DNA from: Faecalibacterium sp. I4-3-84 | GTDB lineage: Bacteria > Bacillota > Clostridia > Oscillospirales > Ruminococcaceae | Assembly: GCF_023347255.1 (NCBI RefSeq) | Contig: NZ_CP094466.1 | Location: forward strand, 2,170,001 to 2,234,000 | Length of the DNA stretch: 64,000 nt | Reading direction: 5' to 3' | Shown: positions 12,208-41,942 of the stretch, piece by piece | Numbering within the stretch: the stretch's first letter is position 1 | Layout of the letters: every line of letters begins with the position of its first letter | The notes under the pieces: generated by a model | Databases searched by the model: none | Told to the model about the DNA's origin: nothing | The model's input: the letters and a program-made list of their open reading frames with translations, nothing else | Position numbers and translations under genes: made by a program

Positions 12208-12500
12208 TCAACAAATGCGCAGATGGGAAAAAGTACCACACGATCCCCACTGTTCAGAGAGCTGCCGTCTGGTGCAAGGCAGTCAGTGCTTCGTGCGGAA
12301 AATCATCCCGGAGCAGCCTGCCCAACGGGTGCAAAACCCTTGTAAGCAGCGCCGGTTGCAGCCGTTACCGTGCAGGGCTTTGTTGGAAGCCCGTGAGAGG
12401 GTGTGCACAGCACGCCAACGAGAGTGGTACCGCAGAGAGCTTGATGATCACAAGGTCTTTGTCTCTTGATAACAGGGGACAAGGGCCTTTTCTTTTAAAA
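12208..12500 (+). promoter_or_regulatory. T-box leader of the ilv operon
   Basis: The leader contains the stem I landmark AGAGAGCTGCCG...GGTGCAAGGCAG (12256-12282), the universal T-box antiterminator core GAGAGTGGTACCGC (12420-12433) that reads the tRNA acceptor end, and a terminator whose 14-bp stem (12452-12465 with 12476-12489) ends in TTCTTTT. The best specifier candidate is AUC (Ile) at 12302-12304 inside GGAAAATCATCC; this assignment needs a proper fold. Uncharged tRNA should favour read-through into ilvB. Confidence 0.9.
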
Positions 12501-28929: not shown

Positions 28930-29250
28930 TATACGAAAAGGCTCTCGTCTTTCAAGGCGAAAACCTTGAGAGACGAGAGCCTGTAAATTCAAACTACAGG
29001 GCACCCGTGGTACCACTCTCTTTGCTGCGCCTTTGGGCACAGCCGCTTTGCACGATCGGCTTTTTGCGGCGAATCGCTGTCCTTGTAACGGTGGACATCC
29101 GTCAGAGCCTACTTGTGTGTTCAGCCCTGCCGCTCAGGGGCCAGTAACCGAAACCCTCTGCACCCGCCTTGCACCACCCGGCGGCTCTCTGTACGCAGAA
29201 GAAAATCGTTTTTTCCCCGTCAACGCATTTGTGCTTTTTTCAAAGTGGAC
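28930..29250 (-). promoter_or_regulatory. T-box leader of the leu operon
   Basis: On the minus strand the leader has the stem I distal landmark AGAGAGCCGCC...GGTGCAAGGCGGG, the antiterminator core GAGAGTGGTACCACGGG (29020-29004), and a terminator hairpin at 28981-28940 (GGCTCTCGTCT with AGACGAGAGCC) followed by TTTTCG. CUG (Leu) at 29144-29142 is a possible specifier codon, consistent with the operon; fold prediction is needed to fix it. Confidence 0.9.
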
Positions 29251-40252: not shown

Positions 40253-40281
40253 TTGACAAACTGGGTAAGAGAGAATATAAT
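40253..40281 (+). promoter_or_regulatory. Promoter of the leader ORF-metY transcript
   Basis: TTGACA (40253-40258), 17-bp spacer, TATAAT (40276-40281), a near-consensus promoter 128 bp before the leader ORF. Confidence 0.85.
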
Positions 40282-40408
40282 GCAAACAACAAATCCACAA
40301 ACCTAGTGGGAAAAAGAAAACAAAGGTTTGCTTCCCGGTACAGAGCAGATAGAGGTGCCGGTTTGTAGATGAGTGGGAAAGAGTTTTACGGGAAAGGAGG
40401 GCACGGAT

Positions 40409-40540
40409 ATGAAGCTGATTTGGAACGACCTGCTGCACGCAAACTTCCGCTATGGGCGAATGTACGGTGACCGGGCAGAACATCTGGCTGCGAACTGTAC
40501 GATGCCCTCTTGCTGTGCACGAATGTGTACCCGAATGTGA
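40409..40540 (+). CDS. 43-residue Cys/Met-rich leader peptide upstream of metY
   Basis: A short ORF with a strong site (AAAGGAGG, eight bases before ATG). Its last 14 residues, CTMPSCCARMCTRM, contain all four cysteines (codons 30, 35, 36, 40) and three of the five methionines. It stands between a near-consensus promoter and an intrinsic terminator, directly before the enzyme that makes homocysteine or cysteine. Codons 21-23 contain ACCGGGCA (40470-40477), an exact complement of TGCCCGGT (40569-40576) in the terminator, and GGGCA can alternatively pair with TGCCC (40503-40507) just before the Cys-Cys codons. This is the layout of a cysteine-sensing attenuator; the peptide itself is probably not functional as protein. 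Confidence 0.65.
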   Translation: MKLIWNDLLHANFRYGRMYGDRAEHLAANCTMPSCCARMCTRM

Positions 40541-40570
40541 CGTTGACAGAATAGCTTTGAATTGTGTTTG

Positions 40571-40608
40571 CCCGGTGCGCTTTTGTATCACGCATCGGGA
40601 TTTTTTGT
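40571..40608 (+). terminator. Leader terminator (attenuator) before metY
   Basis: CCCGGTGCG pairs with CGCATCGGG (40591-40599, one G-U pair), followed by ATTTTTTG. It lies 45 bases before the metY start, with no gene ending just upstream except the leader ORF, so it must act on the metY transcript itself. Confidence 0.85.
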
Positions 40609-40652
40609 ATCATAAAATTATACTAAAAGTACAAATAGAGAGGTAAAATACT

Positions 40653-41942
40653 ATGTCTGACTATAAATTTGAGACCCTGCAGCTTCACGTTGGCCAGGAG
40701 CAGGCCGATCCCGCAACCGATTCCCGTGCAGTGCCTATCTACCAGACCACTTCCTATGTATTCCGCAACAGCCAGCACGCAGCAGACCGCTTCGGCCTGG
40801 CAGACGCAGGCAACATCTACGGCCGTCTGACCAACTCTACGCAGGACGTGTTCGAGAAGCGCATCGCTGCTCTGGAAGGCGGCGTGGCTGCTCTGGCTAC
40901 CGCTTCCGGTGCTGCTGCCATCACCTACACCATCGAAGCACTGGCACAGGCCGGTGACCACATCGTGGCTCAGAAGACCATCTACGGCGGCAGCTACAAC
41001 CTGCTGGAGCACACCCTGACCCAGTTCGGTGTCACCACTACCTTTGTCAATGCACACGATCTGGCTGAGGTGGAGAATGCCATCCAGCCCAACACCAAGG
41101 CCGTCTATCTGGAAACTCTGGGCAACCCCAACAGCGATATCCCCGATATCGATGCCATTGCAGCCATCGCGCACAAGCACGGCCTGCCGCTGGTCATCGA
41201 TAACACCTTCGGCACCCCGTACCTGATCCGTCCCATTGAGCACGGCGCAGATATCGTCGTCCATTCCGCCACCAAGTTCATCGGCGGCCACGGCACCACG
41301 CTGGGCGGCATCATCGTGGACAGCGGCAAGTTTGACTGGAAGGCAAGCGGCAAGTTCGGCAATATTGCTGACCCCAACCCCAGCTACCACGGCGTTTCCT
41401 TTGCCGATGCAGCAGGCCCCGCAGCTTTTGTCACCTACATCCGTGCGATCCTGCTGCGTGATACCGGTGCCACCATTTCGCCGTTCAACGCCTTCCTGCT
41501 GCTGCAGGGCACCGAGACCCTGAGCCTGCGCATCGAGCGCCATGTGGAGAACACCAAGAAGGTGGTCGAGTTTCTGGCAAACCACCCGCAGGTGGAGAAG
41601 GTCAACCACCCCTCCCTGCCGGATCACCCGGATCACGCCCTGTACGAGAAGTACTTCCCCAACGGCGGTGCATCCATCTTCACCTTCAACATCAAAGGCG
41701 GCCGTAAGGAGGCATTCAAGTTTATCGATAACCTGAAGGTCTTCTCCCTGCTGGCAAACGTTGCTGATGTGAAGAGCCTGGTCATCCACCCGGCTTCCAC
41801 CACCCACAGCCAGCTGAACGACGAAGAGCTGGCCGAGCAGCAGATCTATCAGAACACCATCCGCCTGTCCATCGGCACTGAGCACATCGACGATATCATT
41901 GCTGATCTGGAAGCAGGTTTCGCAGCCGTCCGCGGCGAGTAA
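40653..41942 (+). CDS. metY: O-acetylhomoserine (thiol)-lyase / homocysteine synthase
   Basis: PLP enzyme of the Cys/Met metabolism family that sulfhydrylates O-acetylhomoserine to homocysteine; some members also use O-acetylserine. The 429 residues open with FETLQLHVGQEQADPATDSRAVPI in style, with YGRLTNSTQDVFEKRIAALEGG and a PLP lysine in HSATKFIGGHG (K208). Length (about 430, longer than cystathionine synthases near 380) supports the MetY/CysD assignment. AGAGAGG precedes the ATG. Regulation is probably through the upstream leader peptide and terminator. Confidence 0.93.
   Translation: MSDYKFETLQLHVGQEQADPATDSRAVPIYQTTSYVFRNSQHAADRFGLADAGNIYGRLTNSTQDVFEKRIAALEGGVAALATASGAAAITYTIEALAQAGDHIVAQKTIYGGSYNLLEHTLTQFGVTTTFVNAHDLAEVENAIQPNTKAVYLETLGNPNSDIPDIDAIAAIAHKHGLPLVIDNTFGTPYLIRPIEHGADIVVHSATKFIGGHGTTLGGIIVDSGKFDWKASGKFGNIADPNPSYHGVSFADAAGPAAFVTYIRAILLRDTGATISPFNAFLLLQGTETLSLRIERHVENTKKVVEFLANHPQVEKVNHPSLPDHPDHALYEKYFPNGGASIFTFNIKGGRKEAFKFIDNLKVFSLLANVADVKSLVIHPASTTHSQLNDEELAEQQIYQNTIRLSIGTEHIDDIIADLEAGFAAVRGE

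Follow-up and report, generated by a model that had tools for sequence, protein, structure and literature searches.

A conserved short reading frame with an invariant CGA-ATG codon pair as a putative cysteine-responsive attenuator of metY in Faecalibacterium and other Clostridia

Organization of the metY upstream region

The window analysed here, a stretch of 64,000 nucleotides from Faecalibacterium sp. I4-3-84, carries on its forward strand metY, which encodes an O-acetylhomoserine/O-acetylserine sulfhydrylase and is preceded by a promoter, a short open reading frame (ORF) with its own Shine-Dalgarno (SD) sequence and an intrinsic terminator. Three short elements, designated A, B and C, are considered in the pairing schemes below. 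The features, in window coordinates, are as follows.

40253..40281, + strand: sigma-70-type promoter TTGACA-17-TATAAT (-35 at 40253-40258, spacer of 17 nt, -10 at 40276-40281), matching the consensus at 12 of 12 positions and seen again in the genus alignment
40393..40401, + strand: SD sequence AAAGGAGGG of the leader ORF, alike in genus leaders
40409..40540, + strand: leader peptide ORF of 43 codons (family MxxxFxxLLRxNFRxGRM), with profile matches in family, order and class
40451..40453, + strand: codon 15 (-3 to Met18), TAT (Tyr) in the window, the best predicted stall codon
40454..40458, + strand: GGGCG, predicted partner of B and outer stem of the hairpin that would hold A without a ribosome (pairing 0.73-0.97 in the window)
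40457..40462, + strand: first CGA-ATG dicodon (Arg17-Met18), invariant
40470..40477, + strand: element A, ACCGGGCA, around the Arg22-Ala23 codons, putative antiterminator strand (covariation with C, permutation test)
40496..40498, + strand: Cys codon 30, where a stall is predicted by ribosome-mask folding to cover B
40503..40507, + strand: element B, TGCCC, with predicted partner GGGCG at 40454-40458, not A
40511..40516, + strand: tandem Cys codons 35-36
40520..40525, + strand: second CGA-ATG (Arg38-Met39), then Cys codon 40 at 40526-40528 (codon and motif-position counts)
40532..40540, + strand: third CGA-ATG (Arg42-Met43) and stop TGA (codon and motif-position counts)
40569..40576, + strand: element C, TGCCCGGT, overlapping the terminator 5' arm, putative partner of A (complement search, permutation, covariation)
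40571..40606, + strand: intrinsic terminator, stem 40571-40579/40591-40599, U-run 40601-40606 (-15.6 kcal/mol, z -3.64)
40653..41942, + strand: metY (TIGR01326, 630 bits, cut-off 495)

A sequence-only reading of this region had described a consensus promoter, a 43-codon ORF with a strong ribosome site whose last 14 codons include four for Cys and three for Met (Cys at codons 30, 35, 36 and 40; Met at 32, 39 and 43), and an intrinsic terminator before metY, and all of these are borne out, as are the positions it gave for A, B and C. The ORF, whose coordinates count the TGA stop, encodes MKLIWNDLLHANFRYGRMYGDRAEHLAANCTMPSCCARMCTRM; a longer GTG frame in the ORF list shares its stop, and the profile match maps to 40409-40537. 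The terminator fold was equalled by none of 200 shuffles, and it is missing from the general hairpin scan because its loop of 11 exceeds the 3-8 permitted there. The same reading had pointed to two further partners in the 5' UTR, CCCGGT at 40334 and TGCCGGT at 40356. Both lie at these positions in the window, but beyond it they recur only in the same-species genome L025, in which the second has one base changed (CGCCGGT), and they were rejected as elements.

T-box and SAM riboswitches are the usual control of sulfur genes in Firmicutes. For the window leader Rfam returned no riboswitch or other match at the gathering threshold, an outcome that the sequence-only reading required, and 20 loci of the family gave no Rfam match besides two tRNAs; a T-box or SAM riboswitch of a described family in the leader is therefore hardly credible, even though two T-boxes are present elsewhere in the window. 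One of these (12211-12469, + strand, 106.8 bits) precedes what we take to be an acetolactate synthase-like gene, followed by genes for a short ACT-like subunit and a ketol-acid reductoisomerase-like enzyme, and the other (28966-29232, - strand, 101.7 bits) presumably precedes a 2-isopropylmalate synthase-like gene followed by an isopropylmalate dehydratase-like gene.

Conservation of the leader ORF within the genus

Among the 31 genus genomes searched, 16 have a metY ortholog (at least 70% identity), the window's included, and the leader ORF lies upstream of it in 15 of these 16, again counting the window. The leader ORF is more than chance because it recurs before metY in this way together with the promoter, A, B and the terminator; a chance origin was ruled out by this recurrence and by the wider-family matches described below. 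In the alignment the promoter, the SD sequence and the terminator are seen again across the genus leaders, and GGGCGAATG, CCGGGC and TGCCCTC are unchanged in all 14 genus leaders besides L036.

The 14 distinct genus peptides all agree at eleven residues (M1, L8, L9, N12, R14, G16, R17, M18, R22, A23 and S34). Cys15 and Cys30 are each present in 13 of the 14, the window having Tyr at position 15. The tandem Cys codons 35-36, which the sequence-only reading had singled out, occur in just four of the 14, with a Cys-Cys pair at 29-30 in two others, and do not stand as a conserved feature. Of that reading, the pairing of A with C is supported by the covariation given below, and the pairing of A with B is not supported as a conserved feature.

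The metY of the 16th genome (G020, locus L037) is about 70% identical and follows another short leader ORF, MKIVHFTKIQWQKKPRKRMCQARM, which has just CGA-ATG-TGC and CGA-ATG-TGA, 117 and 102 bases before metY. Within the window's own genome the second profile match is weak (E 0.04; LHAAFRTGRMPAAP) and has AGG, not CGA, before ATG. No CGAATG was found in 1.35 kb upstream of the MetQ gene of this genome or within 300 nt upstream of its second metY-like gene. A spacing-pattern search of the same genome gave zero matches, which is uninformative because the pattern does not fit the window leader and misses it too.

A wider leader family and its partner genes

The genus-peptide profile matches many genomes of the family, at positions 1-19 only, and the matched loci carry a short peptide of the form MxxxFxxLLRxNFRFGRM(C)(R)C; matches with E of 0.05-0.5 are probably mostly chance (163 of 297 genomes at E <= 0.5). 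With a 32-row profile, 35 of 197 genomes were matched at the order level at E <= 0.05, 31 reaching E <= 0.001, and 29 of 291 at the class level at E <= 0.001, 27 of those outside the window's order. The family is thus present in several orders of Clostridia. A degenerate LLRxNFRxGRM pattern, in which any Arg codon was permitted before Met, matched at least 119 stretches in a collection of 84,980 genomes. Among the 80 matches listed, one lies outside Bacillota (L143, Ignavibacterium, from which no leader was kept), a few have no stated group, and the remaining ones belong to Clostridia, Oscillospiraceae, Ruminococcaceae, Lachnospiraceae, Butyricicoccus, Gemmiger and similar groups.

After duplicates and non-fitting loci were dropped from L052-L250, the leader set comprised 169 leaders, the window's own included, and a downstream gene was present for 159. 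The genes 3' of these leaders are metY (120), MetQ/NlpA (27), MetN (4), nitrate/taurine/sulfonate-type permeases (3) and sulfonate-type binding proteins (2), with single instances of an Rrf2 regulator, an amino-acid permease and YeiH. Partner clusters were formed by BLAST, and the names other than metY come from NCBIfam scans of nine representatives, most of them below the curated cut-off; the binding protein at L172 is without an NCBIfam match, and the permease at L109 resembles ectoine, cystine and glutamine permeases. The leader at L086 stands before the Rrf2 (IscR/CymR-like) regulator and that at L208 before the YeiH-type putative exporter, hinting at a signal that reaches past uptake and synthesis genes.

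Searches with the peptides themselves gave no match in NCBIfam for eight leader peptides, none in PADLOC for one, and no convincing match in Pfam for the 27 of 32 peptides scanned (two weak matches, E 0.06-0.07, one member each). The breadth of this family, the invariant CGA-ATG and a short, terminator-free form, both described below, had been missed by the sequence-only reading.

An invariant CGA-ATG codon pair

The Arg codon before the Met of GRM is CGA in all 168 leaders with enough flank; in the same leaders the Arg of FR uses all six codons and the Gly codon is free to vary. For comparison, the downstream genes use CGA for 51 of their 1726 Arg codons (3%), and the count is 78 of 1263 in window ORFs of at least 250 aa, a set that includes shadow ORFs. 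A further 24 leaders from class-level loci, at least one of which repeats a known peptide, have CGA in 24 of 24. Over all Arg-Met pairs in the 169 leaders the count is 173 of 177. After GRM, Arg is encoded by CGA in 27 of 38 cases before Cys and in 8 of 136 before another residue or a stop, Met aside; within the genus, Arg is CGA in 39 of 39 cases before Met and in 0 of 15 before Cys.

As a word, CGAATG is depleted across the window (17 occurrences, where shuffles predict 40.8), with three of these 17 inside the leader ORF. It is present in 19 of 28 metY upstream regions of the family (-250 to -20; expected 1.8, z 12.9), an enrichment like that of the -35 box TTGACA (20 of 28); behind three words that extend the -35 box, CGATGT comes sixth among the enriched words (10, expected 1.1), and the best z over 20 shuffled sets of these regions was 6.4. 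Among 29 family metY loci fetched via the protein, five have an NFRxGRM leader, 14 others have CGAATG within 450 nt upstream and ten have neither. CGA-ATG, not NFRxG, may therefore be the widest element. Of the variants listed, 10 of 13 lie 67-98 bases before the start, and for every one a short ORF that reads it in frame can be proposed (for example ..RMCR, ..SRMCSRM and ..YCRM), a reading that carries little weight because the script picked the best start.

The enrichment of CGAATG to the level of TTGACA, together with the predicted pairing of the short-form CGA in about 60% of leaders, would suit a word that is bound as nucleic acid, an RNA or protein-binding element to which the ORF is secondary. 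However, synonymous sites vary freely while the residues stay, CGA is preferred before tail Cys codons too, and Rfam is blank for the window leader and the 20 family loci. A downstream CATTCG occurs as an exact complement in just 2 of 113 short leaders (20 when G-U pairs are tolerated), and pairing with it was rejected as the reason for CGA conservation. We consider binding as nucleic acid very improbable. In a his-leader assay, CGA is reported to be slower than CGU and CGC (PMC4046918).

The long form: terminator and putative A:C antiterminator

A terminator-like hairpin was found in 32 of 43 leaders with more than 110 nt between GRM and the gene, and in 5 of 116 with a shorter distance, these five folding at -9 to -10 kcal/mol. 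Of the 46 leaders that have xR(A/T) after GRM, 45 have a complement of A by or in the apparent terminator 5' arm, L248 being without one; in L176 and L213 it spans five bases only. Two leaders, L252 and L257, are without NFR and retain (C)RMLFSRA, that is, CGA-ATG and the SRA antiterminator codons; a long form that lacks the NFR peptide may thus occur.

For the complement search, the ribosome-mask folding and the covariation analysis, C was picked by complementarity, and a permutation with C located independently of A is therefore the fairer test. The own A:C pairing scored 7.17 against 6.11 for permuted pairs (p < 1e-4, n=46) and, with the test restricted to the 31 non-genus leaders, 7.06 against 6.57 (p=0.0011), p-values that are optimistic since the leaders are related and that were obtained with an arm finder that put several terminator arms wrongly. 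Across 30 distinct A/C pairs, with C chosen by complementarity, 92.2% of cells are paired, the covariation score is 0.332 against 0.170 (0 of 500 shuffles as high), and 28 cells are changed on both sides against 8.8 in shuffles (0 of 500 reach this); weaker measures are the pairs with two-sided changes (5 against 3.1, reached by 27 of 500 shuffles) and the pair types (14 against 11.5, reached by 20 of 500). The role of ACCGGGCA as the terminator-breaking strand, as first read from the window sequence, is upheld by these tests; on comparative evidence the antiterminator strand is formed by the codons for xR(A/T), is exclusive with the terminator and is backed by covariation.

The effect of ribosome position was predicted by mask folding of transcripts cut before the terminator 3' arm, covering 29 of the 31 non-genus leaders (the two with short runs were left out, as in the complement search) and 15 genus leaders, with codon offsets counted from the Met of GRM as 0. 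A ribosome waiting at -3 would give a P(A:C) of 0.97 in the non-genus and 0.90 in the genus leaders; with the P site at 0 to +8 the predicted value is zero, and at +10 it is 0.87 and 0.45, respectively. Cys codons are distributed along the ORF in step with this profile. They occupy -3 in 21 of 29 non-genus and 14 of 15 genus long leaders, are nearly absent from +3 to +10 (1 of 232 and 1 of 120 codons) and reappear at +11 to +18 (32 of 224 and 25 of 120); Cys is also found at +1 in 7 and at +2 in 5 of 44 long leaders, where a stall would cover A. Without a ribosome, P(A:C) is predicted to be 0.958 in the 29 non-genus leaders, so the OFF state there would need a ribosome on A, and 0.455 on the genus average, which a Cys30-like stall (about 0.5) hardly exceeds.

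In the window leader without a ribosome, folding predicts that B joins GGGCG, which belongs to the GRM codons, and that most of A lies in a nested hairpin with 40485-40492. The B:GGGCG stem exceeds 0.75 in 6 of 14 genus leaders. The alternative pairing of A with B, for which the sequence-only reading had GGGCA of A join TGCCC, is predicted at 0.00 in all 14 genus leaders carrying B and was rejected. For the window transcript from 40288, P(A:C) is 0.01 without a ribosome, 0.99 with a ribosome waiting at codon 15, and 0.52, 0.36, 0.25 and 0.00 with one at Cys30, 35, 36 and 40; for a transcript starting at 40389 the four Cys values fall to 0.09, 0.05, 0.04 and 0.00. The placement of Cys codons thus has a weaker predicted effect in the window (0.52 at Cys30) than in other long leaders, and the best predicted stall site, codon 15, is Tyr here. 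The Cys-codon attenuator of metY first proposed for this locus retains its direction, a Cys30 stall raising P(A:C) from 0.01 to 0.52, with a different partner for B.

The short form: a predicted buried Shine-Dalgarno sequence

Folding of 112 short leaders predicts that the SD of the downstream gene is paired with the leader ORF, mainly with the NFR, LL and post-GRM codons. Its unpaired probability is 0.316, compared with 0.454 when the ORF is recoded synonymously (p 9e-10, n=112), and it rises in mask folding to 0.52 when a ribosome has the Met of GRM in the P site and to 0.40-0.42 when the ribosome is past +3; any mask loosens the SD, and the largest release falls at -9/-8 (0.56), not at GRM. 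Cys in this form sits at +1 (58 of 86), at +3 (39 of 74) and close to these positions, whereas -3 has it in only 2 of 115.

The only sulfur codon common to the leaders is AUG, which follows CGA in 168 of 168, and MetQ and MetN are among the targets. The leader might accordingly read methionine, P-site CGA making the next AUG hypersensitive to Met-tRNA supply, and for the short form, folding with a ribosome that waits at AUG (P site at -1) predicts an unpaired probability of the SD of 0.52 against 0.32 without a ribosome. The searches, however, required or favoured Met at that site, the Cys enrichment is left unexplained, and a ribosome that waits at AUG in the long form would cover A and give OFF (P(A:C) 0.05-0.11; window 0.00). 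A methionyl-tRNA gauge is, in our judgement, unlikely.

No Cys follows GRM in 51 of 169 leaders, and the ORF ends right after GRM in 33 of 168, so a pure Cys gauge fails to cover the family; the GRM-stop leaders leave room for a metabolite-sensing arrest or for a Met gauge. In the former case LLRxNFRxGRM would act as an arrest peptide that senses cysteine, SAM or O-acetylserine directly in the exit tunnel and stalls when Met occupies the P site and the A site holds a Cys codon or stop, the Cys codons serving only for tuning. The residues L, R, N, R and G are kept while their synonymous codons vary freely, as an arrest peptide would have it, the stop in the 33 leaders is TGA (27) or TAA (6) and never TAG, and a clostridial precedent is offered by the arrest peptide CliM (PMC13183943). 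Metabolite sensing has no need, however, of a tail Cys enrichment that relocates with the output form, and 14 of the 29 family metY loci keep an upstream CGAATG without the NFRxGRM peptide. We consider direct sensing by the nascent peptide rather unlikely, and less probable than a cysteinyl-tRNA gauge.

Proposed mechanism

Taking the conserved ORF, its gene partners, the A:C covariation, the Cys placement and the CGA invariance seen in the sequence comparisons together with the predicted hairpins, SD burial and ribosome-position effect, we consider it likely that metY is controlled by attenuation in response to cysteine starvation, the leader ORF serving as a gauge of cysteinyl-tRNA that the ribosome reads. 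That the signal is a shortage of Cys-tRNA is argued most strongly by the Cys codons, which differ in position between the two forms and lie mostly at places where a stall would turn the gene on. RNA polymerase would transcribe the leader ORF with a ribosome trailing. When Cys-tRNA is short, the ribosome would stall at a Cys codon from which its footprint does not reach A. In most relatives this would be codon 15; in the window it would be codon 30, less so 35 and 36, and the stall would there cover B and open the hairpin holding A. The freed A would pair with C, the terminator would be blocked and metY would be made. When cysteine is ample, the ribosome would reach the CGA-ATG Arg-Met site with its footprint over A or, alternatively, finish the ORF, leaving A in its local hairpin; with A unavailable, C would pair with the terminator 3' arm and transcription would stop. 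In the terminator-free form the leader ORF would bury the SD of metY or MetQ, and a stall at GRM-Cys would open it. We infer that Cys-tRNA shortage is the signal and that CGA slows the ribosome here, and each kinetic step is proposed on the same footing.

More tentatively, and with rather less confidence than in the gauge itself, we suggest that slow CGA, which is fixed before AUG and also preferred before tail Cys (UGU) except in the genus of the window, amounts to a codon-pair code, in which a ribosome hampered by CGA in its P site would be a sharpened gauge of the next tRNA or make a programmed pause, and that one peptide core drives both a terminator and a buried ribosome site, the Cys codons having been moved to fit. 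CGA-ATG as a slow site would, in the short form, hold the ribosome where the SD opens, the next codon often being Cys, and in the long form might park a well-fed ribosome over A.

Comparison with known leader systems

Trp/his-type attenuators combine an SD-led leader ORF containing regulatory codons with an intrinsic terminator and an exclusive antiterminator. The window leader appears to share all of these, and sequence comparison and folding together point to a leader-peptide attenuator with a conserved ORF and SD, a terminator, an A:C antiterminator and a computed placement of stall codons. It differs from the Trp/his type in that strand A is inside the ORF, upstream of one set of stall codons, and in its conserved peptide, invariant CGA-ATG, cysteine and occurrence in Clostridia. 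In ermC-type translational attenuators the leader ORF pairs with the downstream SD, which a stalled ribosome frees. The short form resembles them in its predicted leader-SD pairing and differs by its sulfur genes and Cys codons, with no antibiotic.

Cys-codon leader ORFs are already known from Actinobacteria and Rhodobacterales. Actinobacterial short ORFs before cysteine genes have Cys-codon runs near their end and no conserved terminator hairpins, according to PMC1262725, and one from M. smegmatis, leaderless by its cited title, is reported to act by translational attenuation (Canestrari 2020, as cited in PMC13236596). The leaders here resemble such runs in part, with Cys-Cys at 35-36 in four and at 29-30 in two of the 14 genus peptides and with Cys-rich tails in the family; the window leader differs by its terminator and by another phylum and other genes. 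The Rhodobacterales cysS motif uORFC-8-2 (PMC8632094) combines a terminator with tandem Cys codons, mostly found at 14-15, and the window leader shares both; unlike the window leader, it is reported there solely before cysS in Rhodobacterales. CliM is likewise a conserved short peptide upstream of a regulated clostridial gene, but it serves yidC (PMC13183943), and for the present leaders an arrest is hypothetical.

The earlier statement that no such leader was known for this enzyme in gut Clostridia agrees with a search of open-licence papers, in which neither such a leader for metY in Clostridia nor any mention of the peptide was found; passages of PMC11109978 and PMC2965389 likewise mention neither. 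If the proposed attenuation holds true, gut Clostridia would have in this leader a signal for cysteine/methionine control that is recognizable by an 11-codon signature. It would also open to test whether bacteria exploit P-site CGA to tune amino-acid sensing, and how the output of an attenuator may move from transcription to translation while its sensor is kept.
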